Shown here: positions 24,390 through 44,567 of the stretch, piece after piece | How positions within the stretch are numbered: position 1 is the stretch's first letter | How the letters are laid out: each line of letters opens with the position of its first letter | Source of the DNA: Geodermatophilus sabuli | GTDB lineage: Bacteria > Actinomycetota > Actinomycetes > Mycobacteriales > Geodermatophilaceae | DNA: 64,000 nt | Direction: 5' to 3' | NCBI RefSeq assembly: GCF_900215145.1 | Contig: NZ_OBDO01000001.1 | Span: 434,001-498,000, forward strand | The notes under the pieces: model-generated | Told to the model about the DNA's origin: nothing | Database searches by the model: none | Seen by the model: only the letters and a program-made list of their open reading frames with translations | Program-made: the position numbers and the translations under genes

Positions 24390-24556
24390 AGCGACGCCGG
24401 ACGAGCGCCTACGACAACTACCTGGCGGAATCGCAGATCGGTCTTCACGAGTCTGAGCTGATGTGGTTCCTGAGCCCTCGGCGCGGGCTCAGCACGTCGA
24501 GCGGGAGACCCTCGACTACGTCGACTGGTCCAACCGTCACCGGCCAACGAGTCGAT
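24390..24556 (+). pseudogene. IS3-family transposase, C-terminal remnant (frameshifted)
   Basis: At 24407 one frame reads AYDNYLAESQIGLHESEL, the DDE-region signature of IS3 transposases (usually YDNALAESQIGLFKTEL). It shifts frame after about 24475 and continues as HVERETLDYVDWSNRHRP up to about 24545, the usual C-terminal block. The rest of the element is gone. It overlaps the 3' end of the LysR gene on the other strand. Confidence 0.75.
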
Positions 24557-25478: not shown

Positions 25479-25573
25479 GCGATCCCACTCGTCGGCACTC
25501 TTGCGCTGGGAGTATCACACGGCGACCGACTGAGTATTGGACTGATCTGAATCGTGCCGCCACAGTGGACGCC
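25479..25573. promoter_or_regulatory. Divergent LysR/acyl-CoA operon promoter region
   Basis: A 95-nt divergent intergenic region. It contains two GAGTAT copies (25509 and about 25531), the second followed by TGGACTGATCTGAAT. AT-rich relative to its surroundings, it is the only place for the LysR binding site and both promoters. Exact sites cannot be fixed by eye. Confidence 0.5.
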
Positions 25574-26752: not shown

Positions 26753-27963
26753 CCCACCCGCTGGACGGCGTCACCGTCGTCGCCCTCGAACAGGCCGTGG
26801 CCGCCCCGCTGGCCACGCGGAACCTCGCCGACCTCGGCGCCCGGGTGATCAAGGTGGAGCGCGTGGACGGCGGCGACTTCGCCCGCGGCTACGACCACGT
26901 CGTCCACGGCACGGGAGCGCACTTCGTCTGGCTCAACCGCGGCAAGGAGTCGATCGCCGTCGACCTCAAGAGCGCCGAGGGGCGCGCGGTCGTCCGGCGC
27001 CTGGTGGAACGTGCCGACGTCTTCGTGCAGAACCTCGCCCCCGGCGCGGCGGAGCGGCTGGGTCTCGGCGCCGGCGAGCTCCGATCGGCCCGGCCCGAGC
27101 TGGTGGTGGTGAACCTCTCCGGGTACGGCACCGGCGGACCGATGGAGCAACGCAAGGCCTACGACATGCTCGTCCAGGCCGAGGCCGGACTCATCTCGAT
27201 CACGGGCACGCCCGAGGCCCCGGTCAAGACCGGCATCCCCACGGCGGACATCGCCTCCGGCATGTACGCCGCCCAGGCGGTCCTCGCCGCGCTGCTGCGC
27301 CGCTGGCGCACGGGGGAGGGGGCCACCGTCGAGGTGTCCATGCTCGAGGCCACGGTCGAGTGGATGGGCCATGCCCTGTACACGCAGATGCACACCGGCA
27401 GCCAGCCTCCGCGGATGGGGCTGAGCCACAGCTCGATCGCGCCGTACGACGCGTTCCCCACGCGGGACGGCCAGGTGCTGATCGGCGTCCAGAACGACAG
27501 CGGCTGGCGCACGCTGGTCACCGAGGTGCTCGGCATCCCCGAGCTCGCCGACGACCCGCGCTTCGCCACCAACGTGCAGCGGGTGCGGCACCGCGCCGAG
27601 TGCGACGCGCTCGTGGCGGCCCGCACGGCCCAGTGGACCACCGCGGACCTGGACGTCCGGCTGGCCGCGGCCGGCATCCCCGCCGCCCAGGTCAAGGAGC
27701 TCGACCAGGTCGTGCAGCACCCACAGCTGCGAGCCCGCGACCGATGGCGGCCGGTCGGCACCGAGCACGCGCCGGTCGAGGCACTCCTGCCCCCCGCGAC
27801 GTTCACCGACGTCGAGGCACGGATGGGCGACGTCCCCGCCCTCGGGCAGCACACCCACGCCCTCCTCGTGGAGTCCGGCATGGACCCCGCCACCGCCGAC
27901 GACGCCATCAGCCGCGGCGTCGCCCTGCAGGCCGAGCACTGCCGAACCGCCCCGGCGCTCTGA
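26749..27963 (+). CDS. CaiB/BaiF (class III) CoA-transferase
   Basis: A 404-aa family III CoA-transferase: N-terminal LDGVTVVALEQAVAAP, ARVIKVER at 31-38, SGYGTGGP at 124-131, and the catalytic Asp167 in GIPTADIASG that forms the aspartyl-CoA thioester. It moves CoA from one acyl-CoA, often succinyl-CoA, to a free carboxylic acid. The GTG start overlaps the dehydrogenase stop. In this operon it probably activates the acid that the two flanking acyl-CoA dehydrogenases oxidise. Confidence 0.92.
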   Translation: MTHPLDGVTVVALEQAVAAPLATRNLADLGARVIKVERVDGGDFARGYDHVVHGTGAHFVWLNRGKESIAVDLKSAEGRAVVRRLVERADVFVQNLAPGAAERLGLGAGELRSARPELVVVNLSGYGTGGPMEQRKAYDMLVQAEAGLISITGTPEAPVKTGIPTADIASGMYAAQAVLAALLRRWRTGEGATVEVSMLEATVEWMGHALYTQMHTGSQPPRMGLSHSSIAPYDAFPTRDGQVLIGVQNDSGWRTLVTEVLGIPELADDPRFATNVQRVRHRAECDALVAARTAQWTTADLDVRLAAAGIPAAQVKELDQVVQHPQLRARDRWRPVGTEHAPVEALLPPATFTDVEARMGDVPALGQHTHALLVESGMDPATADDAISRGVALQAEHCRTAPAL

Positions 27964-27990
27964 CCGCCTACCACCACCGAGAGGACCACC

Positions 27991-28719
27991 ATGCTGACCG
28001 GACGCACCGCTGTGATCACCGGAGCCGCCCAGGGCATCGGGCTGGCGATCGCCCGCACCTTCGCCGCCAACGGGGCCCGGATCGTCATCGGCGACCTCGA
28101 CGAGGCCAGGGCCAAGGAAGCCGCGGCAGCGCTGGACGGCGATGCGATCGGCGTCCGCTGCGACGTCACCGCCTCCGACGACGTGGCGCGGCTCCTCGCC
28201 GCGGCCACGGACTCGTTCGGATCGCTCGACGTCATGGTCAACAACGCCGGCATCACCCGCGACGCCACCATGCGGAAGATGACCGAGGAGCAGTTCGACC
28301 AGGTGATCGACGTGCACCTGCGCGGCTGCTGGAACGGGACGCGGTTGGCCGCCGGGGTCATGCGCGAGTCCGGCGGCGGCTCGATCATCAACCTGTCCTC
28401 GATCTCGGGGAAGGTCGGCTTCGTCGGGCAGACCAACTACTCCGCGGCCAAGGCCGGAATCGTCGGCCTCTCCAAGGCGGCCGCCAAGGAGGTGGCGCAC
28501 CTCGGCGTCCGGGTCAACGTCATCCAGCCCGGGCTCATCCGGACGGCCATGACCGAGGCGATGCCGCAGAAGGCATGGGACCAGAAGATGGCGGAGATCC
28601 CGATGCAGCGGGCCGGTGAGCCCGAGGAGGTCGCCTCGGTCGCCCTCTTCTACGCCTCGGACCTGTCGTCCTACATGACCGGCACGGTCGCCGAGGTGAC
28701 CGGGGGCCGGTACATGTGA
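27991..28719 (+). CDS. SDR family 3-oxoacyl reductase/3-hydroxyacyl-CoA dehydrogenase (FabG-like)
   Basis: A 242-aa classical SDR with ITGAAQGIG (9-17), NNAG (84-87), a Ser near 137, Tyr150 and Lys154 (YSAAK). The end AEVTGGRYM resembles FabG-type proteins. In a degradative operon it probably oxidises 3-hydroxyacyl-CoA. GAGAGGA lies about 10 nt before ATG 27991. No hydratase or thiolase is in this operon, so those steps must come from elsewhere, for example the genes at 1-1842. Confidence 0.88.
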
Positions 28720-28831
28720 GCGCCGCTCGCCGGGTCCGCCGCCCACCGGCGCCTGCCGTCGACGACGGCACCCGTCCACCTGCACCACCCGTCGGCGCTC
28801 GTGCGCCGATCTCCCGAGAGGACGACGACCA

Positions 28832-30091
28832 ATGAGCGCCAGCGACACCATCCCGGCCCACACCCCGGTAGCACTCCGGGAGGGACGCCCGGAAGCCGCG
28901 TCGCTCCCGCCGGCCGCGGCCGGCGATCCGTACGAGCTCGAGGGCGACCTGTCCGACGACGACCGCGCCATTGCCGCGCGGGTGCGCGGGTTCGTCGAGA
29001 CCGAGGTCCTGCCCTGCATCAACGACCACTGGGAGAAGGCCGAGTTCCCCGAGCACGTTCTCGCTCCGCTGGCCCGGACCGGGATCGTCGGCACCTCGGC
29101 GGAGGGATACGGCTGCCCCGGCCTCACGCGGCTGCAGACCGGGCTCGTGGCCTACGAGCTCTCCCGGGGCGACGGCAGCATCAACACCCTCAACGCCGTC
29201 CAGTCGGGGTTGGTCATCGGCACGATCGACCGCCTGGGCGACGAGGAGCAGAAGGAGCGCTGGCTGCCCCGCCTCGCCACGCTCGACGCGTTGGGCGCGT
29301 TCGGCCTCACCGAACCCGACCACGGCTCCGACTCGGTCAAGCTGGAGACCAGGGCCCGCCGCGACGGCGACGACTACGTCCTCGACGGAGCCAAGCGCTG
29401 GATCGGCCTGGGTCACCTCGCCGACGTGGTCATCATCTGGGCGCGCGACGAGGCCGACGGCCACGTCAAGGCGTTCGTCGTCGAGAAGGACGGCGAGGGC
29501 AACCACCCGACCGGCTACACGGCCGAGCCGATCAAGCACAAGATCGGCAAGCGGGCGATCGACCAGGCCCACATCACCCTCGATGCGGTGCGCGTGCCGG
29601 TAGCGAACAGGCTGGCCGCGTCGCGGTCGTTCCGCGACGCCTCGCAGGTCCTCGCCTCCACCCGGACCACCGTGGCCTGGGAGGCGCTCGGGCATGCCGC
29701 GGCGGCGTACGAGGCAGCGGTCGCCTACACCCAGGAGCGACACTCGTTCGGCCGGCCCGTGGCCTCCTACCAGCTGGTGCAGAACAGGCTGGCCACGATG
29801 CTCGCCGACCTCACCGCGATGCGGCTGATCTGCCTGCGCACCGCCGTCCTGCACGACCGCGGCCGGCTGACCGGCGAGCAGGCGTCGCTGGCGAAGATGT
29901 TCTGCGCGGACCGGGGGCGCGCGATCTGCCGCGACTCCCGCGACCTGCTCGGCGGCAACGGACTGCTGCTGGAGCGCCACGTCGCCCGCCACCTGACGGA
30001 CATGGAGGTGGTGCACACCTACGAGGGCACCGACTTCATGCAGTCGCTGATCCTGGGCCGCTCCATCACCGGCATCCCGGCCTTCTCGTGA
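28832..30091 (+). CDS. Acyl-CoA dehydrogenase, glutaryl-CoA dehydrogenase-like
   Basis: A 419-aa acyl-CoA dehydrogenase whose C-terminus (HTYEGTDFMQSLILGRSITGIPAF) has the layout of glutaryl-CoA dehydrogenases, with catalytic Glu398. The mid-part GLTEPDHGSDSVKLET is also of that type. True glutaryl-CoA dehydrogenases oxidise and decarboxylate glutaryl-CoA to crotonyl-CoA. A dicarboxyl-CoA would fit the end product of cyclic-ketone cleavage by the neighbouring BVMO locus, but this link is inference. ATG 28832 gives a roughly 30-residue low-complexity N-terminus. Confidence 0.87.
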   Translation: MSASDTIPAHTPVALREGRPEAASLPPAAAGDPYELEGDLSDDDRAIAARVRGFVETEVLPCINDHWEKAEFPEHVLAPLARTGIVGTSAEGYGCPGLTRLQTGLVAYELSRGDGSINTLNAVQSGLVIGTIDRLGDEEQKERWLPRLATLDALGAFGLTEPDHGSDSVKLETRARRDGDDYVLDGAKRWIGLGHLADVVIIWARDEADGHVKAFVVEKDGEGNHPTGYTAEPIKHKIGKRAIDQAHITLDAVRVPVANRLAASRSFRDASQVLASTRTTVAWEALGHAAAAYEAAVAYTQERHSFGRPVASYQLVQNRLATMLADLTAMRLICLRTAVLHDRGRLTGEQASLAKMFCADRGRAICRDSRDLLGGNGLLLERHVARHLTDMEVVHTYEGTDFMQSLILGRSITGIPAFS

Positions 30092-30148: not shown

Positions 30149-32011
30149 TCAGCCGGCGGTGGGCTGCGCTGCCGCGGGCAGCAGCGCGTCCTCGTCGATG
30201 CCCAGGGCCCGCAGCTTGCGGTACAGGGTGGTGCGACCGATGCCGAGGAGGCCCGCCGCTGCCGACCGGTTGCCGTCGGCCTGACGGAGTGCCGCGACGA
30301 TCTCGGTCCGCTCGGCCGACTCGATCCGCGTCAACGTCCGCCGGTTCGCCGCGTCCCACATGCGCTCGGGAAGGTGGTAGGGGCTGACGGGCCGGCCGGG
30401 GAACTCCCGGGCGAGGTCCTCGAGCAGGCTCCGGAGCTCCGTCACGTTGCCGGGCCAGTCCCACCTCAGCAGGACCTGCATGGTCGCCGCGGACAGGACC
30501 GGGCGGCGCGCGGTGTCCATCCGCTTCAGGAGCGCGTCGACCAGCCCCGGGATCTCCCGCCCCCGGCTCGCCAGCGGGGGGAGTTCGGCGCCGGGGGCGA
30601 CGTGCGAGAGCGCGCCCAGCGTCGCGGCGGAACACCGGCTCATGTCGGCGGTGACCACCAGTCGCGCCTGCGGCCGGCGGTTCGCGGTCGAGGCGCTCGA
30701 GTCGTCGGGAGCGGCGGCACGGGGAACCGCCTCGCTGAGGGCCTTGACGGTATTGACCTGGCTCACGGGCAGGTCCTCGAGCCGCCGGAGCAGGACTGCG
30801 CGGTTCGAGTCCAGGGCCTCCTTCGCCTCGCGTCGCCACGACGGGTGGGTCTCGAGGTCACCCGCGTCCAGCACCAGGGGCTCGGGATGGCCGGTCGAGC
30901 GCAGCCACGCCAGGGCGACGTGCCGCTTGCCCGAACCGCTCGGGCCGGTGACCGACAGCGCGGCCGTGCTCCGGGCGGCTGCGCGCTGCAGTTGGACGAC
31001 GAACGGGTCGTCGCTGAGGGGGAGCGCGGCCAGGCGTGGCCGGGTCACGGTGGGACGCCGGCGGTGCAGGATCTCGACGGCGAAGGCCGTCTCGTCGCCG
31101 AGGTCGTCGAGCCGGTGGGCAAGGACCTGCGCCTGCAACGTCTGGAGGTCCAGATCCAGGACGCACGGCCCTCGGGACCAGTCCTGGGAGACCAGCGAGT
31201 CCCAGAGGCGTGCATGGCTCTCGACGTTGAGGAACGACAGCCCGGTGACGTTGGTCATCACGGTGTCGCTGTTGAGCACGATCACCGGGCCCTTGTCGCG
31301 GTGCCGTCGGTAGCTGCGCCCGAGGGCGACCTCGCGCCGCCCGACGGTCGCGCTCAGGTTGTCCACGATCTGCCGGGCGCCCTCGCGGGCCATCGCCAGC
31401 ATCATCGTCTCCGCTGCATCCGCCGGTGCGGCCAGGGACAGCGAGCCCACGAGGCGACCCGTGACGGGGTGCCGGATGCCTGCACCCGCACAGGCGAGGT
31501 CCTCCAGTGCCTGGTTGTAGTGCTCCGGGCCGCGCACGAAGACCGCGCCCGCCTCCCGGATGGCGGTACCGAGCCCGTTCGTGCCGATGCTCTCCTCGGA
31601 GAAGTCGAAGCCCTCGGCGGCGCACGCGTTGTCGAACCGCACCTGTTCACTGCGGCCGGTGACCCGGCGGCCGACGATCTGGCCCGTCCTGTCGGCCAGG
31701 AAGATCGCGGTACCCATGTCCTGCAGCATCGCCGCCAGGCGGTCGAGCACCGGCCGCGCGGCCCGGCTCACCTCACTGTCGGCGTCGAACTCGTTGACGT
31801 AGTGGAACGAGCCCGGCTCACGGGTCGCTCCGGCGCTGATGGAGCGCCGCCAGCTGCGGTCGATCTCCCCGGGCAGCCAGTCGAGGTGCGGCTCCCCGCT
31901 CAGCACGAGGCCGTGCGAGATCAGCGTCTCCTTCGCGGACCGGACCGCGTCGGCTTCCGCGAGCCTGCGGCGCGGAACGCTCGACGCCGCCTCGGACGGG
32001 TCGCTCGGCAT
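30149..32011 (-). CDS. Fis-type transcriptional activator with GAF and degenerate NtrC-like AAA domain (AcoR/MimR-like)
   Basis: A 620-aa regulator. Residues about 80-235 are a GAF-type sensor (ESIGTNGLGTAI, GIRHPVTGRLVGSLSLA). Residues about 335-535 are an NtrC-like AAA domain with Walker A GPSGSGKR (356-363) and WPGNVTEL (519-526). The sigma-54-contacting GAFTGA loop is missing and Walker B is degenerate (VLLRRLEDL). A Fis HTH closes it (GNRSAAAGLLGIGRTTLYRKL, 580-600). It is divergent from BVMO 1. Related actinobacterial proteins (AcoR/MimR type) control propane, acetone and alcohol oxidation. Loss of GAFTGA implies activation of sigma-70-type promoters, in line with the operators at 32143 and 37266. 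Confidence 0.9.
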   Translation of the reverse strand: MPSDPSEAASSVPRRRLAEADAVRSAKETLISHGLVLSGEPHLDWLPGEIDRSWRRSISAGATREPGSFHYVNEFDADSEVSRAARPVLDRLAAMLQDMGTAIFLADRTGQIVGRRVTGRSEQVRFDNACAAEGFDFSEESIGTNGLGTAIREAGAVFVRGPEHYNQALEDLACAGAGIRHPVTGRLVGSLSLAAPADAAETMMLAMAREGARQIVDNLSATVGRREVALGRSYRRHRDKGPVIVLNSDTVMTNVTGLSFLNVESHARLWDSLVSQDWSRGPCVLDLDLQTLQAQVLAHRLDDLGDETAFAVEILHRRRPTVTRPRLAALPLSDDPFVVQLQRAAARSTAALSVTGPSGSGKRHVALAWLRSTGHPEPLVLDAGDLETHPSWRREAKEALDSNRAVLLRRLEDLPVSQVNTVKALSEAVPRAAAPDDSSASTANRRPQARLVVTADMSRCSAATLGALSHVAPGAELPPLASRGREIPGLVDALLKRMDTARRPVLSAATMQVLLRWDWPGNVTELRSLLEDLAREFPGRPVSPYHLPERMWDAANRRTLTRIESAERTEIVAALRQADGNRSAAAGLLGIGRTTLYRKLRALGIDEDALLPAAAQPTAG

Positions 32012-32142: not shown

Positions 32143-32159
32143 TGTTCCAAAACGGAACA
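32143..32159. promoter_or_regulatory. Operator TGTTCC-N5-GGAACA, copy 1 (BVMO 1 operon)
   Basis: Perfect 6-bp arms, TGTTCC at 32143-32148 and GGAACA at 32154-32159, with spacer AAAAC. The copy at 37266-37282 shares flanking bases too (CTGTTCCA before, CGGAACAC then TCGG after). A -10-like TAGTGT starts 23 nt after the right arm (32182-32187), which puts the palindrome centre near -43. It probably binds the divergent Fis-type activator. Confidence 0.75.
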
Positions 32160-32181
32160 CGTCGGCTGCCCAGCGCAGACC

Positions 32182-32187
32182 TAGTGT
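32182..32187 (+). promoter_or_regulatory. -10-like element of BVMO 1 operon
   Basis: TAGTGT fits the actinobacterial TANNNT pattern. No good -35 hexamer precedes it; the operator copy 1 occupies that place. The equivalent TACGTT sits at exactly the same distance from operator copy 2. Confidence 0.5.
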
Positions 32188-32333
32188 CGCTCATCACAGC
32201 AGCACGGGAGACGCGGCAGGCCACCGGAGCCGCCGGGACAGCGCTCCAGCCCCGCATCGCCAAGCGGTCCATCGCCTGAGGGCGATCCCCCGATGCCTGA
32301 ACGCCATCCGCCCGACCGATCCCCGGAGGAACC

Positions 32334-33986
32334 ATGACCCCCCTGAGCACCCCCGGCGCCACCATCCCCCGCGGCTCCCACGTGGACTACGACGCCATCG
32401 TCATCGGCGCCGGCTTCGGCGGCATCTACATGCTGCACAAGCTGCGCAACGAGCTCGGCCTCACCGTCCGGGCCTACGACCGCGCGAGCGGCGTCGGCGG
32501 CACGTGGCACTGGAACCGCTACCCCGGGGCCCTCTCGGACACCGAGGGGTTCGTCTACCGCTACTCCTTCGACCGGGAGCTGCTGCAGGACTACGACTGG
32601 TCGACCCGCTACCTCAAGCAGACCGACATCCTGGCCTACCTCGAGCACGTCGTGGACCGCTTCGACCTGGCCCGGGACATCCAGCTCGACACGGGCATCA
32701 CCGCAGCGGTCTTCGACGAGGACACCAACTCCTGGACCGTCACCACCGACCGCGGCGAGACCGTCACCGCGACCTACGTCGTCACCGCGCTCGGCCTGCT
32801 CTCCAAGATCAACATGCCGGACATCCCCGGCATCGACACCTTCGCCGGCGAGATCATCCACACCGGTGCCTGGCCGGAGGAGCACGACCTCCGTGGCAAG
32901 AGGGTCGGGGTGATCGGGAACGGCTCGACCGGCCAGCAGGTCATCTCGGCCATCGCCCCCGAGGCCGAGCACCTGACCGTCTTCATGCGCACCCCGCAGT
33001 ACAGCGTGCCCGCCGGTGACCGGGCGATGAGCCCGGAGGAGGTGTCCGCGATCAAGCGGGACTACGACTCCATCTGGGACCAGGTGCGCAACTCGGTGGT
33101 GGCCTTCGGGTTCGAGGAGAGCACCGTCCCCGCGATGAGCGTCTCCGAGGAGGAGCGGCAGCGCGTGTTCCAGGAGAACTGGGACATCGGCGGGGGGTTC
33201 CGCTTCATGTTCGGCACGTTCTGCGACATCGCCACCGACCCGGCCGCCAACGAGGCCGCCGCCTCCTTCATCCGGTCCAAGATCTCGGAGATCGTCGAGG
33301 ACCCGGAGAAGGCCCGCATCCTGACGCCGACCGACCTCTACGCCCGCCGTCCCCTGTGCGCGAACCACTACTACGAGACGTTCAACCGCGACAACGTCTC
33401 GGTGGCGGACATCAAGGCGCACCCCATCGTCGAGATCACCCCTGACGGACTGCGGACCGCCGACGGCCGGACCCACGAGCTGGACGTGCTCGTCCTGGCC
33501 ACCGGCTTCGACGCCGTGGACGGCAACTACCTCGCCATGGACCTGCGCGGCCGCGGGGGACGGTCGATCAACGAGGCGTGGGCGGAGGGCCCCGCGAGCT
33601 ACCTCGGGACCAGCACCGCCGGCTTCCCGAACCTGTTCATGATCCTGGGTCCCAACGGCCCCTTCACCAACCTGCCGCCGAGCATCGAGACCCAGGTGGA
33701 GTGGATCGGCACGCTCGTCGCGGAGGCACAGGAGCGGGGGACCGCCGTCGAGGCGTCCACCGAGGCCGAGCGGGCGTGGACCGAGACCTGCCGCACCATC
33801 GCCGACATGACCCTCTTCCCGAGGGTCGACTCCTGGATCTTCGGAGCCAACATCCCCGGCAAGACCCAGACGGTCATGTTCTACATGGGCGGGCTCGCCA
33901 ACTACCGCGCCCAGCTCGCCGAGGTCGCGGACGACGGTTTCCGCGGGTTCGAGTTCACCGAGGTGCCCGTCGAGGCAGCGGCCTGA
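32334..33986 (+). CDS. Baeyer-Villiger monooxygenase 1 (cyclohexanone monooxygenase group)
   Basis: A 550-aa flavin monooxygenase. FAD site GAGFGG lies at 25-30, the BVMO fingerprint FAGEIIHTGAWPE at 170-182, and the NADP Rossmann GNGSTG at 195-200. It shares long blocks with cyclohexanone monooxygenases, such as ESTVPAMSVSEEER, GGGFRFMFGTF, ATGFDAVDGNY and NGPFTNLPPSIE. It inserts one oxygen next to a ketone carbonyl using O2 and NADPH, giving an ester or lactone. GGAGGA lies 6 nt before ATG 32334. It is first in an operon with alcohol dehydrogenase, MFS and USP genes, under operator copy 1. BVMO 2 at 38453 is a close paralogue. Confidence 0.95.
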   Translation: MTPLSTPGATIPRGSHVDYDAIVIGAGFGGIYMLHKLRNELGLTVRAYDRASGVGGTWHWNRYPGALSDTEGFVYRYSFDRELLQDYDWSTRYLKQTDILAYLEHVVDRFDLARDIQLDTGITAAVFDEDTNSWTVTTDRGETVTATYVVTALGLLSKINMPDIPGIDTFAGEIIHTGAWPEEHDLRGKRVGVIGNGSTGQQVISAIAPEAEHLTVFMRTPQYSVPAGDRAMSPEEVSAIKRDYDSIWDQVRNSVVAFGFEESTVPAMSVSEEERQRVFQENWDIGGGFRFMFGTFCDIATDPAANEAAASFIRSKISEIVEDPEKARILTPTDLYARRPLCANHYYETFNRDNVSVADIKAHPIVEITPDGLRTADGRTHELDVLVLATGFDAVDGNYLAMDLRGRGGRSINEAWAEGPASYLGTSTAGFPNLFMILGPNGPFTNLPPSIETQVEWIGTLVAEAQERGTAVEASTEAERAWTETCRTIADMTLFPRVDSWIFGANIPGKTQTVMFYMGGLANYRAQLAEVADDGFRGFEFTEVPVEAAA

Positions 33987-34062
33987 CCCGGCCGCGGCGC
34001 AGCCCGCGCCGTACGCCCTCCCCAACACGTCGACCACCGCACCGTCCCGAATGAGGTATCCC

Positions 34063-35124
34063 ATGCGCGCATTCGCAGTCCCCGAGGGCAGCACGGCCCT
34101 GTCCGAGATGGAGTTCCCCACCCCGACACCCCAGGGCACGGAGGTGCTGCTGCGCGTCTCCCGCTCTGGGGTCTGTCACACCGACACCCACCTCCGGGCC
34201 GGCTACTACGACCTCGGACGGCGCGGGAAGCTCCGGCTGACCGACCGGGGTGTGCCCTATCCGCTGACCATGGGCCACGAGGTGGTCGGGGTCGTCGAGG
34301 CGGCAGGTCCGGACGTCGAGGGCGTGGCGCTCGGCAGCACCCGGCTGGTCTACCCCTGGATCGGGTGCGGCGAGTGCGCCGCCTGTCTCGCCGGGCGCGA
34401 GAACGCGTGCCCGGCCGGGCGCAACCTCGGAGTCGCGCGCCCTGGCGGGTACGCCGACCGCATCCTGGTCCCGCACCCCCGGTACCTGCTCGACATCGGG
34501 GACCTCGACCCCGACTGGGCCGCCACAATGGCCTGTTCGGGCCTCACCGCCTACGGCGCCGTCTCGAAGGTCCTGCCGCTCCCGCCCGACTCCCCGGTCG
34601 TGGTCATCGGCGTCGGGGGCGTCGGCCTGACGGCGGTCGCCACGCTGCACGCGCTGGGCCACCGCGCGGTCTGCGCCGTGGACCGCGAGGAGGGCAACCT
34701 GGCGGTGGCCCGGGGGCTGGGCGCCTCGACGTCCGTGGCCGTCACGGGCGACGACCTGGCCGGTGACGTGCGCAAGGCGGTCGGGGCGCCTGTGGTTGCC
34801 GTCATTGACTTCGTCAACAACGAGCAGACGGCCTCAGCCGCCTTCGAGGTGCTCGCCAAGGGCGGGACCATGGTCCAGGTCGGCCTCTTCGGCGGCGAGC
34901 TGACGATCCCGACGGCGCTCCTCGCGCTGAAGATGGTCACGGTCCAGGGCAGCTTCGTCGGCACGCTGTCTGAGCTGCACGAGGTGCTGGAGCTGGCCGA
35001 GCAGGGCCGCATCCCGCGCATCCCGGTCATCGCCGGGGAGCTGGATCTCGAGGGCGTCACCGATTCCCTCGACCGGCTGGCGGCCGGGGGAGTGGCCGGC
35101 CGCATCGTGCTGAGCAGCGCGTGA
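34063..35124 (+). CDS. Zinc-dependent alcohol dehydrogenase
   Basis: A 353-aa medium-chain dehydrogenase. Catalytic zinc ligands are Cys38, His72-Glu73 (GHEVVG) and Cys158. Structural zinc cysteines are at 102, 105, 108 and 116 (CGECAACLAGRENAC). The NAD Rossmann motif is VIGVGGVGL. It oxidises alcohols to ketones or aldehydes, the step before (or after) BVMO action. I chose ATG 34063 because GAGGT lies 6 nt upstream; an in-frame ATG at 34051 would add four residues. It lies 76 nt after BVMO 1 and is probably co-transcribed. Confidence 0.92.
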   Translation: MRAFAVPEGSTALSEMEFPTPTPQGTEVLLRVSRSGVCHTDTHLRAGYYDLGRRGKLRLTDRGVPYPLTMGHEVVGVVEAAGPDVEGVALGSTRLVYPWIGCGECAACLAGRENACPAGRNLGVARPGGYADRILVPHPRYLLDIGDLDPDWAATMACSGLTAYGAVSKVLPLPPDSPVVVIGVGGVGLTAVATLHALGHRAVCAVDREEGNLAVARGLGASTSVAVTGDDLAGDVRKAVGAPVVAVIDFVNNEQTASAAFEVLAKGGTMVQVGLFGGELTIPTALLALKMVTVQGSFVGTLSELHEVLELAEQGRIPRIPVIAGELDLEGVTDSLDRLAAGGVAGRIVLSSA

Positions 35125-35285
35125 GCCCAGCCGCCACCCCCGGCCGCCGGCAGCTGATCGCACCAGCCGGGCTCCACGGCCTCGACGCCACCACGCCGGC
35201 TCCGGCGCAAGCGCCGACTGACTTCCCTGCACCCCCACCGAGCGCCATGCTCTTCGCACGGCGCAGCTCGAAGGAGAAATCCGCG

Positions 35286-36647
35286 ATGACTGCAACCACA
35301 GCCACCGAGCACGACGCACGACGCAGGCGAACGGTGGTGTGGGTCGTCTCCCTCGCCACCGTCGGCCTGATCTTCGACGGCTACGACCTGGTCGTGTACG
35401 GCGTGGTGCTGCCGATCTTCCTGGACGACCCCGATCAGATCGGGCAGGTGACGCCCGCTCTGGGGGGGACCCTGGGCAGCTATGCCCTGCTGGGGATGTT
35501 GGTCGGCGCCCTGATCGCCGGAGCCGTCGGCGACATCGTCGGCCGCCGCAGGGTCATGCTCACCGCCTACGCGTGGTTCTCCATCGGCATGCTGGTCACC
35601 GCGCTGACGAGCAGCACCGCGATGTTCGGCCTGTGGCGATTCCTCACCGGCCTCGGCATCGGCGCGCTGATCGCCACCACCGGCGCCCTGGTCGCCGAGT
35701 TCGCCCCTCCCGGCAAGAAGAACCTCTGCAACGCCATCACCTACTCGGGCGTCCCGCTGGGGAGTCTGCTGGGTGCCTTCATCGCCATCCTCTTGCTGGA
35801 TCTCATCGGCTGGCGCGGGATGTTCATGATCGGCGCGCTGCCGATCCTCACCCTGCTGCCGTTGGCGTTCCTGAAGATGCCCGAGTCCGTGTCGTGGCTG
35901 GTCGCCCGGGGGCGGGTCGAGGAGGCCCGGGAGGTCTCCGAGCGGACCGGCATGCCGATGCCGGTCAGCGTCCCCGCGGCGGCGTCCGCGGAACGGGCCG
36001 GTTTCGCCGGCTTGTTCAGTCGCACGTTCTGGTTCGCGACCGTGCTGACGGGGATCCTCAGCGCTCTCGCGCAGTTCCTCAACTACTACCTCAACACGTG
36101 GTTGCCGGCCCTGATGGAACGGTCGGGGTTCAACGCCAAGGGCTCGCTGGCCTTCCTGCTCGTGTTGAGCGGCGGCGCGATCGTGGGGGCGCTGACCGGG
36201 TCCCGGTTCGCCGACCGGTTCGGGCCGAAGCTCGTCATCGCGGCCTCCTTCCTGATCGGGGCCGTCTCCATCGTCCTGCTGACGTTCGACCTGCCGTTGG
36301 CCGTGCGCCTGGCCTTCGTCGCCGTCGTCGGCCTCGGCACCACCGGGACGTCGATCATGATCTACGGGTTGGTGGCCAACCACTTCCCCACGAAGATGCG
36401 GGGCGCCTCGGTGGCCTGGGCTGCGGGGTTCGGCCGGCTGGGCGGTACCAGCGGCCCCCTGCTGGGCGGTCTGCTCCTGGCCGCCGGTCTCTCGGTGAAC
36501 GGATCGTTCTACGTGCTGGGCGGCCTGGCGCTCCTGGGCGCCGTCCTGACGCTGATGGTCCCGCGCGCCCACCGTGCGGCCGACCTCCACCCCGTCCCCG
36601 TCGAGCCCGCGGTCCCGGTCGCCACCGGAGTCTCGAAGGCCACCTAG
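35286..36647 (+). CDS. MFS transporter, aromatic acid:H+ symporter (AAHS)-like
   Basis: A 453-aa, 12-helix-type MFS protein. It has the AAHS-type helix 1 motif FDGYDLVVYGVVLP, GDIVGRRRVML in loop 2-3, and SRFADRFGPK in loop 8-9. AAHS members import benzoate, 4-hydroxybenzoate, vanillate and related acids. Here it probably imports a cyclic or aromatic-like acid or ketone precursor. GAAGGAG lies 9 nt before ATG 35286; the longer frame from 35121 overlaps the ADH stop but lacks a ribosome site. Confidence 0.88.
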   Translation: MTATTATEHDARRRRTVVWVVSLATVGLIFDGYDLVVYGVVLPIFLDDPDQIGQVTPALGGTLGSYALLGMLVGALIAGAVGDIVGRRRVMLTAYAWFSIGMLVTALTSSTAMFGLWRFLTGLGIGALIATTGALVAEFAPPGKKNLCNAITYSGVPLGSLLGAFIAILLLDLIGWRGMFMIGALPILTLLPLAFLKMPESVSWLVARGRVEEAREVSERTGMPMPVSVPAAASAERAGFAGLFSRTFWFATVLTGILSALAQFLNYYLNTWLPALMERSGFNAKGSLAFLLVLSGGAIVGALTGSRFADRFGPKLVIAASFLIGAVSIVLLTFDLPLAVRLAFVAVVGLGTTGTSIMIYGLVANHFPTKMRGASVAWAAGFGRLGGTSGPLLGGLLLAAGLSVNGSFYVLGGLALLGAVLTLMVPRAHRAADLHPVPVEPAVPVATGVSKAT

Positions 36648-36706
36648 GACCGGTCCCGGGACCGCGACGGCGACGACCCGGGTCGACAACCGTCGAGAGC
36701 GTGGTG

Positions 36707-37144
36707 ATGACCGTGTACGACCGGATACTCGCAGCCATCGATGTGTCGCCGGGCTCGCCCGACGACTTCCTGGACCGGACGAGCCGGTTCGCGAAGATGA
36801 CCGGTGGGACGGTCCACCTCCTCCACGTCGCGCGCGGCCACGTGGTCGTCCAGGACATCACCGCCGGGTCGGGGCTCGGCGTCCTCGAGGGCGATGACGA
36901 CGTGGCCACCGGAGAGCACACGATGGTGCAGGGCGCCGTCGACCGGCTCGCCGCAGCGGGGGTCGCCGTGCACGGGGAGTTCGTCAACGCCACCGAGCAC
37001 GACATCGCGGCCGTCATCCTCCAGCGAGCGGAGGAGCTGGACGCCGATCTGATCGTCCTCGGTCACCCGCACCACCGTGGGTCGACGGTGGCCGAGCAGG
37101 TGATCCGGGGGCATCCGGCCCGCTCCGTCCTGCTGGTGCCCTGA
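36707..37144 (+). CDS. Universal stress protein (UspA family)
   Basis: A 145-aa single-domain USP. The N-terminus YDRILAAIDVSPGS and the C-terminal nucleotide loop LGHPHHRGSTVAEQVIRGHPARSVLLV (G-2x-G-9x-G-S/T type) are present, with Ser at the expected place. It probably binds ATP. It is the last gene before the second operator. Alternative GTG starts at 36701 and 36704 exist. Its presence within a solvent-like substrate pathway may help tolerance to ketones, which is inference. Confidence 0.87.
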   Translation: MTVYDRILAAIDVSPGSPDDFLDRTSRFAKMTGGTVHLLHVARGHVVVQDITAGSGLGVLEGDDDVATGEHTMVQGAVDRLAAAGVAVHGEFVNATEHDIAAVILQRAEELDADLIVLGHPHHRGSTVAEQVIRGHPARSVLLVP

Positions 37145-37265
37145 CCGTGGACGTCTCCGGCGCGGTGGACGACAGCCGTGCCGCAGCGCTCCACATCGTG
37201 TCACCAGGCGCTCCCGGGAGGACCCGGACGGGGAACTGCGGCATCGATGCCGGGGAGTCCCGGAC

Positions 37266-37282
37266 TGTTCCACATCGGAACA
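37266..37282. promoter_or_regulatory. Operator TGTTCC-N5-GGAACA, copy 2 (esterase-BVMO 2-pntAB operon)
   Basis: TGTTCC at 37266-37271, spacer ACATC, GGAACA at 37277-37282. With flanks, it matches copy 1 in 21 of 24 positions. TACGTT at 37305-37310 begins 23 nt after the right arm, as in copy 1. This gives the same predicted activator position near -43 and ties the two operons into one regulon. Confidence 0.75.
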
Positions 37283-37304
37283 CCTCGGCACTCGGACCTC
37301 CTCC

Positions 37305-37310
37305 TACGTT
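37305..37310 (+). promoter_or_regulatory. -10-like element of esterase operon
   Basis: TACGTT (TANNNT pattern) predicts a start of transcription near 37317, giving a leader of about 107 nt before ATG 37424. Confidence 0.5.
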
Positions 37311-37423: not shown

Positions 37424-38365
37424 ATGACCACCGACACCTCCGCAGGCGCCACCACTGACCCGACCGGTGCCGAGGGCCAGGACAGGCTCCGCGACCTGTA
37501 CGCCGACTGGTCCCAGATCATCGCGACCACGCCGGACCTGTCCATGCGCCTGTTCCGCGCCATCTTCGATGAGTGGCACCAGCCGACCGTCGAGCCGGAG
37601 GGCGTGACCTACCGCGAGGACACCGTCGGCGGCGTGCCGGGCATCTGGTGCCTGCCGGTGGGTGCGGACGAGTCCCAGGTCCTGCTGTACAGCCACGGCG
37701 GTGGCTTCGCGGTCGGCTCGGCCGCCAGCCACCGCAAGCTGGCCGCCCACGTGGCCAAGACCCTGGGCGCCGTCAGCTTCGTGCTGGACTACCGCCGCGC
37801 CCCCGAGCACCCGCACCCGGCGCAGGTCGAGGACGGCGTGGCCGTGTTCGACGCGCTGGTCGCGTCGGGCATCGAGCCGAGGAACATCACCACGATCGGC
37901 GACTCGGCGGGCGGCAACCTGGCCATCGCCATCCCGCTGGCCCTCCAGCAGCAGGGGAAGCCGACCCCCGGCCAGGTCATCGCCTTCTCCCCGTGGGTCG
38001 ACATGGAGAACAAGGGGGAGACCCTCACCAGCAACAACGACACCGACGCCCTGATCACCCGCGAGCTGCTCGAGGGCATGATCGCCGGGGTGCTCGGTGA
38101 GCGCGTGGCCCCCACGACTCCGCTGGCCAACCCCCTCTACGCCGACTTCACCGGCTTCCCCCGGCTGTACATGAACGCCGGCAGCGCGGAGGCCCTGATG
38201 GACAACGCCCACCGCATTGAAGAGCGCGCCAAGGCCGCCGGTGTGGACGTCACCCTGTCCATCGGCGAGGGCCAGCAGCACGTCTTCCCGTTCCTGGCCG
38301 GCCGGTCGACGGTCGTGGACCAGGAGCTGTCCCGCATCAGCGACTGGTACCGCCAGGGCCGCTGA
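37424..38365 (+). CDS. Alpha/beta hydrolase, HSL-family esterase/lactonase
   Basis: A 313-aa esterase of the hormone-sensitive lipase family. The oxyanion HGGG is at 91-94, LDYRRAPEHPHPAQVED at 121-137, and the nucleophile GDSAGG at 159-164 with Ser161. The C-terminal His sits in GQQHVFPF. It precedes BVMO 2 and should hydrolyse the ester or lactone that BVMOs make, as ChnC does in cyclohexanol degradation and as methyl-acetate hydrolase does in acetone degradation. It is first in the second operator-controlled operon. GAAGGGCGA precedes ATG 37424. Confidence 0.9.
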   Translation: MTTDTSAGATTDPTGAEGQDRLRDLYADWSQIIATTPDLSMRLFRAIFDEWHQPTVEPEGVTYREDTVGGVPGIWCLPVGADESQVLLYSHGGGFAVGSAASHRKLAAHVAKTLGAVSFVLDYRRAPEHPHPAQVEDGVAVFDALVASGIEPRNITTIGDSAGGNLAIAIPLALQQQGKPTPGQVIAFSPWVDMENKGETLTSNNDTDALITRELLEGMIAGVLGERVAPTTPLANPLYADFTGFPRLYMNAGSAEALMDNAHRIEERAKAAGVDVTLSIGEGQQHVFPFLAGRSTVVDQELSRISDWYRQGR

Positions 38366-38452: not shown

Positions 38453-40105
38453 ATGACCGCACCGCTGCACCCCCAGAGCCAGCTCCACCCGCAGACCGTG
38501 GACGCCATCGTGATCGGTGCCGGCTTCGGTGGCATCTACGCCGTCCACAAGTTCGCCAACGAGCTCGGCCTGTCCGTGATCGGCTTCGACAAGGCCGACG
38601 GTCCGGGCGGCACGTGGACCTGGAACCGCTATCCCGGTGCCCTCTCCGACACGGAGAGCCACCTGTACCGGTACTCCTTCGACAGGGACCTGTTGCAGGA
38701 CGGCACCTGGAAGCACACCTACATCACCCAACCCGAGATCCTCGAGTACCTCGAGGGCGTCGTTGACCGCTTCGACCTGCGCCGTCACTTCCGGTTCGGC
38801 GCCAAGAACGAGGTCACCACCGCCGTCTACCTCGACCGGGAGGGCCTGTGGGAGGTGACCACGGAGGCCGGCGACGTGTTCCGTGCCAAGTACGTGGTCA
38901 ACGCGGTGGGCCTGCTCTCGGCCATCAACTTCCCGAAGCTGCCCGGCCTGCACACGTTCGAGGGCGACGTCCTCCACACCGGCGCCTGGCCCGAGGGCAA
39001 GGACATGACCGGCAAGCGCGTGGGCGTCATCGGCACCGGCTCCACCGGTGAGCAGGTCGTCACCGAGCTGGCGCCGAAGGTCGAGCACCTGACGGTCTTC
39101 GTGCGCACCCCGCAGTACTCCGTGCCGGTGGGCAAGCGGCCGGTGACGCAGGAGGAGATCGACGCGATCAAGGCCGACTACGACCAGATCTGGGAGCAGG
39201 TCAAGAACTCCGCCGTGGCCTTCGGCTTCGAGGAGAGCACCGTCCCCGCCATGAGCGTCTCCGAGGAGGAGCGCAACCGCGTCTACGAGGAGGCCTGGCA
39301 GAAGGGCGGCGGCTTCCGGTTCATGTTCGCCACCTTCGGGGACATCGCCACGGACGAGGCGGCCAACGAGACCGCCGCCGCCTTCATCCGCGCCAAGGTC
39401 AGCGAGATCATCAAGGACCCGGAGAAGGCTCGCAAGCTGATGCCGACGGGGCTCTACGCCCGCCGCCCGCTTTGCGACAACGGCTTCTACGAGGCCTTCA
39501 ACCAGCCGAACGTGGACGTCGTCGCCATCAAGGAGAACCCGATCCGGGTGATCACCGAGTCGGGCGTGGTGACCGAGGACGACCAGCTGCACGAGCTGGA
39601 CGCGCTGATCTTCGCCACCGGGTTCGACGCCGTGGACGGCAACTACCGGCGCATGGACATCCGGGGCCGCGACGGTCTGTACCTCAACGACCACTGGGGC
39701 GGCCAGCCGAACAGCTACCTGGGCATGGCCACCGCCAAGTTCCCCAACTGGTTCATGGTGCTGGGCCCCAACGGCCCCTTCACCAACCTGCCGCCGAGCA
39801 TCGAGACCCAGGTGGAGTGGATCAGCGATGCGGTCAAGTACTGCGAGGACAACGGCGTTCAGGCGATCGAGCCCGCCGAGCAGACCGTGTCCGACTGGAC
39901 CGACACCTGCACGGAGATCGCCAACATGACCCTCTTCACCAAGATCGACTCGTGGATCTTCGGCGCGAACATCCCGGGCAAGAAGCCGTCCGTCCTGTTC
40001 TACCTGGGCGGGCTGGGCAACTACCGCACGATCCTCGACGACGTCGCGAAGAGCGGCTATCGCGGCTTCGAGCTGACCACGGCCAAGGAGCCGGTCTCGG
40101 CCTGA
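38453..40105 (+). CDS. Baeyer-Villiger monooxygenase 2 (cyclohexanone monooxygenase group)
   Basis: A 550-aa FAD/NADPH monooxygenase with GAGFGG (22-27), the fingerprint FEGDVLHTGAWPE (169-181) and GTGSTG (194-199). Blocks such as ESTVPAMSVSEEERNRVYEE, GGGFRFMFATFGDIAT, KLMPTGLYARRPLCD and ATGFDAVDGNYRRMDI match my memory of Acinetobacter cyclohexanone monooxygenase, so cyclic ketones are the likeliest substrates. It is a close paralogue of the 32334 gene and shares a 67-nt identical DNA stretch with it (39767-39833 against 33651-33717). AAGGAG precedes ATG 38453. Confidence 0.95.
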   Translation: MTAPLHPQSQLHPQTVDAIVIGAGFGGIYAVHKFANELGLSVIGFDKADGPGGTWTWNRYPGALSDTESHLYRYSFDRDLLQDGTWKHTYITQPEILEYLEGVVDRFDLRRHFRFGAKNEVTTAVYLDREGLWEVTTEAGDVFRAKYVVNAVGLLSAINFPKLPGLHTFEGDVLHTGAWPEGKDMTGKRVGVIGTGSTGEQVVTELAPKVEHLTVFVRTPQYSVPVGKRPVTQEEIDAIKADYDQIWEQVKNSAVAFGFEESTVPAMSVSEEERNRVYEEAWQKGGGFRFMFATFGDIATDEAANETAAAFIRAKVSEIIKDPEKARKLMPTGLYARRPLCDNGFYEAFNQPNVDVVAIKENPIRVITESGVVTEDDQLHELDALIFATGFDAVDGNYRRMDIRGRDGLYLNDHWGGQPNSYLGMATAKFPNWFMVLGPNGPFTNLPPSIETQVEWISDAVKYCEDNGVQAIEPAEQTVSDWTDTCTEIANMTLFTKIDSWIFGANIPGKKPSVLFYLGGLGNYRTILDDVAKSGYRGFELTTAKEPVSA

Positions 40106-40154: not shown

Positions 40155-40176
40155 CATCTCCTGCAGAAGGACGTTC

Positions 40177-41559
40177 ATGGGTCTCTACACCACCACCAAC
40201 CCCGCCACCGGCGAGACGCTCGCGACGTACGAGGAGATCTCGGACGCCGAGCTGCAGGACCTGATCGCCCGCAGCGACGCCGCCTACCGGTCCTGGCGCA
40301 CCACCTCACCGGACGAGCGGCGTGCGGTGCTGAGCCGAGCCGCGGAGATCCACCGGGAGCGCTCCGAGGAGCTCGCCGCCCTGCTGACCCTGGAGATGGG
40401 CAAGCCGGCCGCCCAGGCCCAGGGTGAGGTGGCGCTGGTCGCCTCGATCTACCAGTACTACGCCGACCACGTCGAGGAGTTCCTGGCCGACGAGCCCCTG
40501 GAGATCTCGGGCCCCGGCACGGCCGTGGTCCGCACCGAGCCGATCGGCCCGCTCGTGGGCGTCATGCCGTGGAACTACCCCTACTACCAGGTGGCCCGCT
40601 TCGCCGCCCCCAACATCGCCCTGGGCAACACCGTCATCCTCAAGCACGCCCGCAACTGCCCCCAGTCGGCTCTGGTCGTCGAGCGGGTGCTGACCGAGGC
40701 CGGGCTCCCGGACGGGGTGTATCTCAACGCGTTCATCTCCTCCGCCCAGGTGGCCGACGCCATCGCCGACCCGCGGGTCCAGGGTGTCTCCCTGACCGGC
40801 TCGGAGAAGGCCGGTGCCGCGGTCGCAGAGGTGGCCGGGCGGAACCTGAAGAAGTGCGTGTTGGAGCTCGGCGGATCGGATCCCGTGATCGTGCTGGACG
40901 ACGCCGACATCGACGCCGCCGCGGCGGCCGCCGCCACCGGCCGGCTCGCCAACGGGGGCCAGGCCTGCACCGCGTCGAAGCGCTTCCTGGTCCAGGCCGG
41001 GGTGTACGACGAGTTCGTCCGCCGGCTGGTTGACCAGATGGCCGGCTGGACCCCCGACGATCCGACGAGCACGGACACGAAGATGGGGCCGCTCTCGTCG
41101 GCATCCGCGGCAGGCGAGCTGGACGAGCTGGTGGAGGACGCCGTCTCCCAGGGCGCGGAGCTGCTGCTGGGCGGCGGACGGACGGGCGAGGAGAGTGCCT
41201 TCTACCGGCCCACCCTCCTGGGCGGCGTGACCTCCCGGATGCGCGCCTACAGCGAGGAGCTGTTCGGCCCGGCCGGCGTCGTGTACCGCTTCGACTCCAT
41301 CGAGGACGCGATCGAGCTGGCCAACGACTCGCCCTACGGGCTGTCCTCCAGCGTGTTCACCAGCGACGACGAGAAGGCGCAGCAGATCGCCGAGTCCCTG
41401 GAGACCGGCATGGTGTGGATCAACAGCACCAGCAGGAGTGCCCCGGACCTGCCCTTCGGCGGCGTCAAGCGCTCGGGCTTCGGCCGGGAGCTGGCCCGGT
41501 TCGGCTTCAACGAGTTCGCCAACAAGAAGCTCGTCAGAAACGCTCGGGCGGGGTCATGA
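40177..41559 (+). CDS. NAD(P)-dependent aldehyde dehydrogenase (succinate-semialdehyde type)
   Basis: A 460-aa ALDH. PWNYP is at 131-135, Lys156 (LKHA), the general base Glu230 (LELGG), the nucleophile Cys264 (GGQACTASKRF), and the C-terminal PFGGVKRSGFGRELARFG. The short length and this tail match the succinate-semialdehyde branch, and substrates may include adipate or glutarate semialdehyde. In this operon it should oxidise the aldehyde derived from the hydroxy-acid released by the lactonase. AGAAGGACG precedes ATG 40177. Confidence 0.93.
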   Translation: MGLYTTTNPATGETLATYEEISDAELQDLIARSDAAYRSWRTTSPDERRAVLSRAAEIHRERSEELAALLTLEMGKPAAQAQGEVALVASIYQYYADHVEEFLADEPLEISGPGTAVVRTEPIGPLVGVMPWNYPYYQVARFAAPNIALGNTVILKHARNCPQSALVVERVLTEAGLPDGVYLNAFISSAQVADAIADPRVQGVSLTGSEKAGAAVAEVAGRNLKKCVLELGGSDPVIVLDDADIDAAAAAAATGRLANGGQACTASKRFLVQAGVYDEFVRRLVDQMAGWTPDDPTSTDTKMGPLSSASAAGELDELVEDAVSQGAELLLGGGRTGEESAFYRPTLLGGVTSRMRAYSEELFGPAGVVYRFDSIEDAIELANDSPYGLSSSVFTSDDEKAQQIAESLETGMVWINSTSRSAPDLPFGGVKRSGFGRELARFGFNEFANKKLVRNARAGS

Positions 41560-41638: not shown

Positions 41639-42064
41639 ATGACCCAGGACGACGCCCAGAACATCGATCGTTTCCAGCGCGGCATGGACCGCATGATGGA
41701 ACTGGTCTCCACCGAGCAGTCCGGCACCTTCGACCACGCGAAGCTCGTCGAGTCCTACAGGGACCTGGACCCGGAGCTGTCGGACTACATCGTGTCGTTC
41801 GCCTTCGGCGACATCTACTCCCGCACGAGCCTGACCCAGCAGGAACAGACGATGGTGACCATCGCCACCCTGACGGGCCTGGGTATCGAACCGCAGCTGA
41901 AACTGCACATCAACGTCGGTTTCAACGTGGGGCTGACCAGGGAGAAGATCATCGGCACCCTGATCCACTGCATCCCCTACGTCGGCTTCCCCCGTGTCCT
42001 CAACGCCCTGAGTCTCCTCAAGGAGGTCATGGCAGAGAGGAACGCGGACGCCGGCGCGGACTGA
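41639..42064 (+). CDS. Carboxymuconolactone decarboxylase family protein
   Basis: A 141-aa all-helical CMD-fold protein with the block EQTMVTIATLTGLG and then EPQLKLHINVGFNVGLTREKI and the end CIPYVGFPRVLNAL. It lacks the CxxC of AhpD peroxidases, so it is nearer the gamma-carboxymuconolactone decarboxylase type, which acts on lactones. Its place between aldehyde dehydrogenase and a reductase suggests a lactone- or oxo-acid-related side step. The exact reaction is unknown. GAAGGA precedes the ATG. Confidence 0.88.
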   Translation: MTQDDAQNIDRFQRGMDRMMELVSTEQSGTFDHAKLVESYRDLDPELSDYIVSFAFGDIYSRTSLTQQEQTMVTIATLTGLGIEPQLKLHINVGFNVGLTREKIIGTLIHCIPYVGFPRVLNALSLLKEVMAERNADAGAD

Positions 42065-44556: not shown

Positions 44557-44567
44557 GAGGCCCACTC

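Follow-up and report, generated by a model that had tools for sequence, protein, structure and literature searches.

The window analysed here, a stretch of 64,000 nucleotides (nt) from the genome of Geodermatophilus sabuli (assembly GCF_900215145.1, contig NZ_OBDO01000001.1, positions 434,001 to 498,000), contains a gene for a GAF/Fis-type regulator and, beside it, two gene sets that are each preceded by the same palindrome, TGTTCC-N5-GGAACA. The first set comprises a Baeyer-Villiger monooxygenase (BVMO 1), a zinc alcohol dehydrogenase (ADH), a major facilitator superfamily (MFS) transporter and a universal stress protein; the second comprises an esterase, BVMO 2, an aldehyde dehydrogenase (ALDH) and a carboxymuconolactone decarboxylase-family protein. 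Judged from gene spacing, each set forms an operon (operons 1 and 2). The two palindromes are considered below as candidate operators of the regulator (Table 1).

Table 1. Predicted features of the locus, in window coordinates (aa, amino acids; HTH, helix-turn-helix; CHMO, cyclohexanone monooxygenase).
Feature	Position	Strand	Basis or remark
LysR gene	24537-25478		within cluster
GAF / AAA+-remnant / Fis-type HTH regulator, 620 aa, without GAFTGA; proposed binder	30149..32011	-	Pfam GAF, AAA_lid_14, HTH_8
Operator 1 (predicted), TGTTCC-AAAAC-GGAACA	32143..32159	+	pattern scans of window and genome
-10-like box TAGTGT	32182..32187	+	starts 23 nt after operator 1 right arm
BVMO 1, CHMO type	32334..33986	+	best PDB match T. 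municipale CHMO 5m0z, 884 bits
Zinc ADH; 6-hydroxyhexanoate dehydrogenase-like role inferred from context	34066..35124	+	Pfam ADH_N, ADH_zinc_N
MFS transporter	35286..36647	+	Pfam profile match
Universal stress protein	36707..37144	+	Pfam Usp
Operator 2 (predicted), TGTTCC-ACATC-GGAACA	37266..37282	+	pattern scans of window and genome
-10-like box TACGTT	37305..37310	+	starts 23 nt after operator 2 right arm
Alpha/beta-hydrolase esterase, caprolactone hydrolase-like by context	37424..38365	+	Pfam Abhydrolase_3; 78% to Rhodococcus plasmid relative
BVMO 2, CHMO type	38453..40105	+	best PDB match CHMO 6er9, 1004 bits
ALDH, 6-oxohexanoate dehydrogenase-like by context	40174..41559	+	Pfam Aldedh
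Carboxymuconolactone decarboxylase-family protein; operon 2 may end here	41639..42064	+	Pfam CMD

Both palindromes match the pattern with 0 mismatches, and the whole 5,517,094-base genome has no further perfect copy; the two lie 5.1 kb apart, both ahead of an operon. In each case 22 nt separate the palindrome from a TANNNT box, and with the last T of the -10 taken as -7 the palindrome is centred at -43. No -35 element was visible: the best TTGACA match 16-18 nt from the two boxes scored 2/6 and 1/6. The initial annotation had reported the pair, the boxes, the missing -35 and a centre near -43, all of which were recovered; the agreement it gave for the pair with flanks, 21 positions in 24, holds in a frame starting one base before the palindrome and falls to 19/24 if the frame starts four bases before. 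When palindrome, five-base core and spaced -10 were combined (18 specified bases, at most 3 wrong), the window pair gave the only matches in the genome and the control gave 0. A general promoter and terminator scan gave nothing useful.

The pattern and its spacing recur in relatives, cited here by genome (G) and locus (L) numbers. Homologues of the regulator at E<=1e-60 were present in 6/112 genomes of the family, 7/215 of the genus Nocardioides and 3/394 of a class sample (G000 being counted in both family set and class sample); at the looser E<=1e-40, 21 genomes of the family set were listed with a homologue. The closest orthologues, at 67-69% identity, belong to Nocardioides and to a Nocardioidaceae metagenome-assembled genome. 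Because the closest relatives within the window's own family are just 37-39% identical, the cluster was probably acquired horizontally. All 23 genome orthologues examined, together with one that is plasmid-borne, have the palindrome nearby with 0-3 mismatches, in most cases near the regulator and ahead of esterase or BVMO genes. Such a site precedes an esterase, a BVMO or a luciferase-like monooxygenase in 21/22 annotated clade loci, a count that leaves outside G113, which has palindromes but no separate annotation. The luciferase-like case is that of G082 and G081; in the latter, a 73% complete genome, no clade regulator was found.

A training set of 21 sites was aligned, the direction of each being assigned by hand from the downstream gene or the core. 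Near-duplicate genomes (G113, G195), upstream tandem copies (L053 13167, L058 248) and loci whose sites all carry 2-3 mismatches were kept out of the set. The core is mostly ANATC when read toward the target gene, and is directional. A and T at a distance of four bases were counted at all offsets, offset 24 corresponding to nANNNT starting 23 nt past the right arm; this box was found at 18/21 sites, with every other offset below 3. A count blind to orientation, covering all sites with at most one mismatch in 11 loci in both directions, gave 18/40 for offset 24 and 3 for the next best. The first box recurs with the same TAGTGTCGCT at equal spacing ahead of the esterase in G112, G114, G195 and G115; the second hexamer does so in G975 and on Rhodococcus plasmids. 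Over 28 sites, chosen because the spacing was present, the -35 position matched TTGACA at a mean of 1.5/6, below the shuffled value of 2.17. Tandem palindromes were also seen, 24-25 bp apart in four genomes (L141 10460/10485, L142 9459/9484, L143 10618/10642 and L144 10547/10572) and 44-46 bp apart in two (L053 13167/13211 and L058 248/294); in these pairs the proximal palindrome is the one with the -10 spacing.

Held-out loci were obtained by searching 397 genomes of the order with the Rhodococcus plasmid regulator, which found 11 regulators, 7 of them previously unseen. A palindrome with 0-1 mismatch lay just upstream of an esterase-BVMO pair at all 7 unseen loci, and the -10 was at exactly 23 nt in 6/7; with the plasmid locus included, the site is ahead of the esterase in 8/8 and exactly spaced in 7/8. 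Palindromes with a spaced box on both sides occur at L139 7739 (G975), L126 6873 (YL-1 plasmid) and L145 10420 (G742), where one box is directed at the esterase and the other at the regulator gene or the operon of that gene. These places may hold divergent class II promoters of symmetric layout and, because a spaced box also faces the regulator gene or its operon, the arrangement suggests autoregulation. A 1-mismatch palindrome lies between ADH and ALDH genes in four related genomes (L141 7121, L142 12707, L143 7002 and L144 7225), with the nearest nANNNT box one base further, at 24 nt.

The site also follows the regulator. The refined pattern GTTCCANAWCGGWACR was present in 7/112 family genomes, namely the 6 that bear the regulator (E<=1e-60) and G081 (6/6 versus 1/106; Fisher p 3e-9). 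The reversed control of the plain palindrome had no perfect match in the 112. The genus set gave 14/215 genomes, 4/7 of those bearing the regulator and 10 others whose matches all end in ACG and lack the -10 spacing. The class sample gave 10/394, G000 and G670 among them bearing the regulator; in G555, the remaining genome of the sample with a regulator, the palindrome is perfect and its core has AGATT. Pattern matches in genomes without the regulator (10 in the genus set, 8 in the class set) were taken as unrelated, the -10 spacing being present at 1/19 places (G533). When a site with at most 2 mismatches, correctly spaced and within 1.5 kb of the regulator, was demanded, 12/15 clade loci qualified as compared with 1/20 paralogue loci (G115 being outside this count).

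Phylogeny delimits the same group. The 16 site-bearing regulators of the first set are set apart together by a branch of 100/100 support, and with the held-out proteins added all 23 site-bearing regulators are, again at 100/100, in a 45-row tree from which the plasmid protein was left out. The recognition helix of the window regulator is LGIGRTTLYRK, and the signature LGIGR[TN]TL[YW] was found in 16/16 site-bearing first-set regulators and 0/20 paralogues, as well as in 7/7 held-out regulators and the plasmid protein. In the G. sabuli genome, two further Fis-type genes (E<=1e-40, 32-33% identical) differ in the recognition helix, and no site with at most 2 mismatches was found in the 16-19 kb surrounding them. 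Extension to a general rule for actinobacterial Fis-type regulators was rejected as unsupported, other offsets giving similar counts beside the 20 paralogues; on 8 Rhodococcus plasmid loci (intergenic regions), the spacing occurred at 1/19 half-views of perfect palindromes. Beside some paralogues we noted TGTCCC-N5-GGGACG followed by GACGAT at 23 nt (G039b, L048 3342; G053a, L041 3370) and TGTCC-N7-GGACA followed by CACAGT at 23 nt (G048, L036 1376; G108, L040 3340); with the background of other offsets similar, these are only a lead. Rhodococcus rhodochrous pNit (L125 9077-9093) carries AATACG-N5-CGTATT, a perfect palindrome followed at 23 nt by GACACT, ahead of a flavin adenine dinucleotide (FAD) oxidoreductase and near a 31-32% regulator paralogue.

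The architecture of the regulator bears on how it may act. The window protein matched AAA_lid_14 and HTH_8, and gave no match to the Sigma54_activat AAA+ domain up to E 1. The GAFTGA loop was absent from all 36 first-set homologues and from the held-out ones. The sigma-54 domain PF04552 was not found in the genome at E<=0.001; it was detected in 4/14 control genomes. The Walker A motif is kept in most clade members, its lysine having changed to arginine in G306, G555, G670 and G742. A plasmid search with BVMO 2 led to a syntenic cluster in Rhodococcus sp. YL-1 (pYLL2) and Rhodococcus sp. DN22 (p1), in which esterase, CHMO and ALDH genes are preceded by the site TGTTTCATAACGGAACA and, at 23 nt from it, a TACGTT box. 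The regulator orthologue there (L126 4515-5732; L127) is only 405 aa long; its AAA+ domain is wholly absent, with the GAF part and the HTH kept. It aligns to residues 21-314 (44%) and 559-605 (66%) of the window regulator, and to the full-length, 611-aa G975 regulator at 82% and 68% in the two parts. Because it is so close to the G975 protein, the loss of the AAA+ domain looks lineage-specific. If the 405-aa regulator is functional, AAA+ activity would be dispensable, which speaks for a simple contact of class II type with the housekeeping polymerase.

We consider it probable that the two palindromes are operators through which the GAF/Fis-type regulator activates two promoters lacking a -35, in the manner of a class II activator. 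The regulator would, most likely via its N-terminal GAF region, sense a cyclic ketone or a compound formed early from it. A dimer would bind the 6-5-6 palindrome at -43 and, once bound, would turn on two housekeeping-sigma promoters having a -10 and no -35, and with them both operons; the AAA+ region would be a remnant unneeded for open-complex formation, deleted in one lineage. As at class II promoters, the site is centred near -40 (at -43), over the -35 position and at a fixed distance from the -10, and as in NtrC-type proteins without GAFTGA, a Fis-type HTH is combined with an AAA+ remnant. A -10 box without a -35 is consistent with the housekeeping sigma factor. We favour class II activation of the housekeeping polymerase because sigma-54 and GAFTGA are not found, the site is fixed and promoter-proximal, the -10 stands without a -35 and the AAA+ domain can be missing. 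The initial annotation had already suggested class II placement and named the adjoining GAFTGA-less regulator as the natural binder. The single spacing of the -10, the lack of a -35 and of PF04552 support the former suggestion; the co-occurrence with the clade (6/6 versus 1/106, and 7/7 held-out) supports the latter.

A number of observations weigh against this interpretation. Exact spacing is missed by 3/21 training sites, one of them by a single-base shift, and the held-out genome G750 has its site without the exact -10 spacing. When all 18 sites with at most one mismatch in the 8 held-out loci are taken, exact spacing on at least one side is present at only 8; the box is one base further in 8 and in neither position in 2, one of them within the regulator gene of the plasmid. 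Distal tandem copies and sites between ADH and ALDH genes are among those that deviate from the exact spacing, and promoters other than that of the esterase may use 24 nt, or the scheme may not apply to them. Clade members G318, G136 and G306 have only 2-3-mismatch sites; these are three regulator genomes of the genus Nocardioides, in which the sites are exactly spaced and stand before an esterase or BVMO gene. At a cut-off of 3 mismatches with spacing, 13/15 clade loci scored as compared with 5/20 paralogue loci, and a 3-mismatch site therefore proves little by itself; the clade misses in this count, G095 and G082, have sites farther from the regulator or without the spacing. The palindromes of G670 precede an ALDH gene or unassigned genes. 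The refined motif was shaped partly on the same loci in which its co-occurrence was counted. For the AAA+-less form there is a single protein sequence, carried by two plasmids, and its gene could have been damaged recently. Binding, dimer state, activation, inducer, substrate and operon extents are all inferred from sequence.

The main rival keeps the same regulator and sites and reverses the effect: bound at -43, the protein would block polymerase until the ketone releases it, and the missing -35 would reflect ordinary promoter weakness. A repressor operator could lie near -43 as well; the site overlaps the normal -35 position, and a clear -35 is often missing from actinobacterial promoters. 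Repressor sites usually tolerate more positional variation, however, so that the spacing fixed in 18/21 training and 7/8 held-out esterase sites, together with the directional core, counts against repression. The similarity to a -35, being under the shuffled mean, does likewise. Caulobacter NtrC, also without GAFTGA, does repress some sigma-70 promoters (PMC10274813, in the part of the text available). Overall, we regard repression as unlikely.

It is less likely still that the sites serve another binder, such as the LysR-type regulator of Table 1 or a global regulator, with the Fis-type protein a mere neighbour. A LysR gene is present in the window cluster and in 10/15 other loci, and in G670 one site adjoins such a gene; the loci among the 15 without a strong LysR match nearby include G318, G136, G021, G043 and G016/G095. 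Most sites, however, lie in esterase/BVMO or regulator intergenic regions, and occurrence of the site goes with the Fis-type clade and the signature in its recognition helix. The combination of regulator, site, esterase and BVMO is found with no LysR match in the examined stretch in G021, G043 and G095, and likewise in G975, G750, G821, G955, G898 and G742.

That the regulator works in the manner of the bacterial enhancer-binding proteins, the family to which it belongs and whose Walker A motif most clade members retain, is very improbable given a genome without detectable PF04552, the lack of GAFTGA and of a Sigma54_activat match, the arginine in place of the Walker A lysine in G306, G555, G670 and G742, the two plasmids on which the AAA+ domain is absent and the promoter-proximal site. 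Chance palindromes without a regulatory role are close to refuted by the recurrence of perfect copies, spacing and gene context across genera, even though copies with at most 2 mismatches are common in the genome (39 in addition to the perfect pair, 41 in all, as compared with 18 for the reversed control) and such copies within the window, 2 against a shuffle mean of 1.10 and reached in 29/100 shuffles, are unremarkable and leave chance open at that level.

The genes concerned point to a particular substrate. BVMO 1 and BVMO 2 are 63% identical to each other, and BVMO 2 is 77% identical to its Rhodococcus plasmid relative. By homology, CHMO, lactone hydrolase, ADH and ALDH genes stand together at the locus, in synteny with the Rhodococcus plasmids. 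Because the BVMOs resemble cyclohexanone monooxygenases, the regulon is probably a cyclohexanone-to-adipate catabolic set, and homology and context fit a route from cyclohexanone by way of caprolactone, 6-hydroxyhexanoate and 6-oxohexanoate to adipate. The initial annotation had spoken of a complete ketone regulon. The ketone part agrees with the same esterase and BVMO genes following the site in most relatives, and can be narrowed to cyclohexanone; completeness is too strong a claim, because the adjoining beta-oxidation genes have a LysR gene of their own and no palindrome. These genes (24537-30091: the LysR gene, two acyl-CoA dehydrogenases, a CoA-transferase and a short-chain dehydrogenase/reductase) are probably the downstream part of the pathway, and no copy of the palindrome with at most 2 mismatches was found in this 24.5-30.1 kb stretch.

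The MFS transporter seems to belong to the regulon, because its relative in G112/G113, 70% identical, has a 1-mismatch palindrome of its own; this extra copy (L098 and L099, position 1501) lacks the exact -10 spacing. Directly past the cluster lies an NAD(P) transhydrogenase gene (43021-44556), with an open frame at 43746-45986 beyond; supply of NADPH to the monooxygenases is a plausible role for it, and L150 likewise has an annotated NAD(P) transhydrogenase close to a Fis-type paralogue. At two relatives, L142 6974-9364 (G955) and L054 7609-8755 (G016), BVMO homology appeared in pieces in tblastn rows, as did that of the esterase in G955, which may reflect frameshifts or sequencing errors.

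Several known systems resemble parts of this arrangement. The NtrC operator, TGCACC-N5-GGTGCA, is likewise a 6-5-6 palindrome of 17 bp and has 8/12 arm bases in common with the one described here, and the GR[TN]TL recognition helix is similar to that of E. coli NtrC; the two operators differ at two bases per arm, and NtrC acts from remote sites whereas the palindrome here is promoter-proximal. The enzyme set is by homology that of the Chn cyclohexanone pathway (CHMO, caprolactone hydrolase, 6-hydroxy- and 6-oxohexanoate dehydrogenases). ChnR, the regulator of that pathway, belongs to the AraC family, whereas the regulators adjoining the operons here are Fis-type and LysR-type. The Fis-type regulator of M. 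smegmatis MSMEG_1970-1979 is MimR, a protein studied genetically that is reported to have a role in acetone-responsive expression. In Acinetobacter, ChnR is paired with PchnB (excerpt of PMC4738008), the place taken here by the Fis-type regulator. Roles of caprolactone hydrolase and 6-oxohexanoate dehydrogenase have been described in an actinobacterium (PMC9477822, partial text).

Fis-family regulators are likewise encoded next to prmABCD in Rhodococcus BCP1, its relatives and M. smegmatis, in divergent orientation to this actinobacterial monooxygenase operon. For prmA of BCP1 the start was mapped by primer extension, with a conserved palindrome over the putative -35 and a divergent Fis-type gene (PMC4428276, as far as its available text goes). 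These systems differ in serving a propane/acetone di-iron monooxygenase, and the likeness is one of layout. For actinobacterial propane monooxygenase genes, a 2022 review lists the regulators of the Fis family as 'sequence analysis only' (PMC8784404, in the section available). The nearest mechanistic precedent is that of GAFTGA-less NtrC-type proteins acting on sigma-70 promoters, as given in the same available part of PMC10274813: Rhodobacter capsulatus and Caulobacter NtrC share with the present regulator the family, the lack of GAFTGA and housekeeping promoters. They are two-component response regulators of nitrogen genes, whereas the regulator here is of GAF type and presumably senses a ligand, its sites hold a single fixed class II position and one lineage has no AAA+ domain at all. 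Among literature titles and abstract openings, with subscription papers mostly outside reach, none was found describing a TGTTCC-N5-GGAACA operator or a Fis-type regulator of cyclohexanone genes.

The evidence specifies an operator, its position, a cognate regulator clade and a natural AAA+-less version, so that binding and mechanism become directly testable in soil bacteria. If the interpretation is right, biosensors and systems for expressing Baeyer-Villiger enzymes could use this ketone-responsive pair of regulator and promoter, and there would be a documented example of motor loss in an enhancer-binding protein. We give an even chance to the broader proposition that the clade consists of descendants of enhancer-binding proteins turned ordinary class II activators, with the operator fixed at -43, a vestigial AAA+ domain and full loss of that domain in Rhodococcus, where operator, spacing and GAF sensor are retained. 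If true, one could trace in this clade how ATP-driven remodelling from afar gave way in evolution to simple recruitment.

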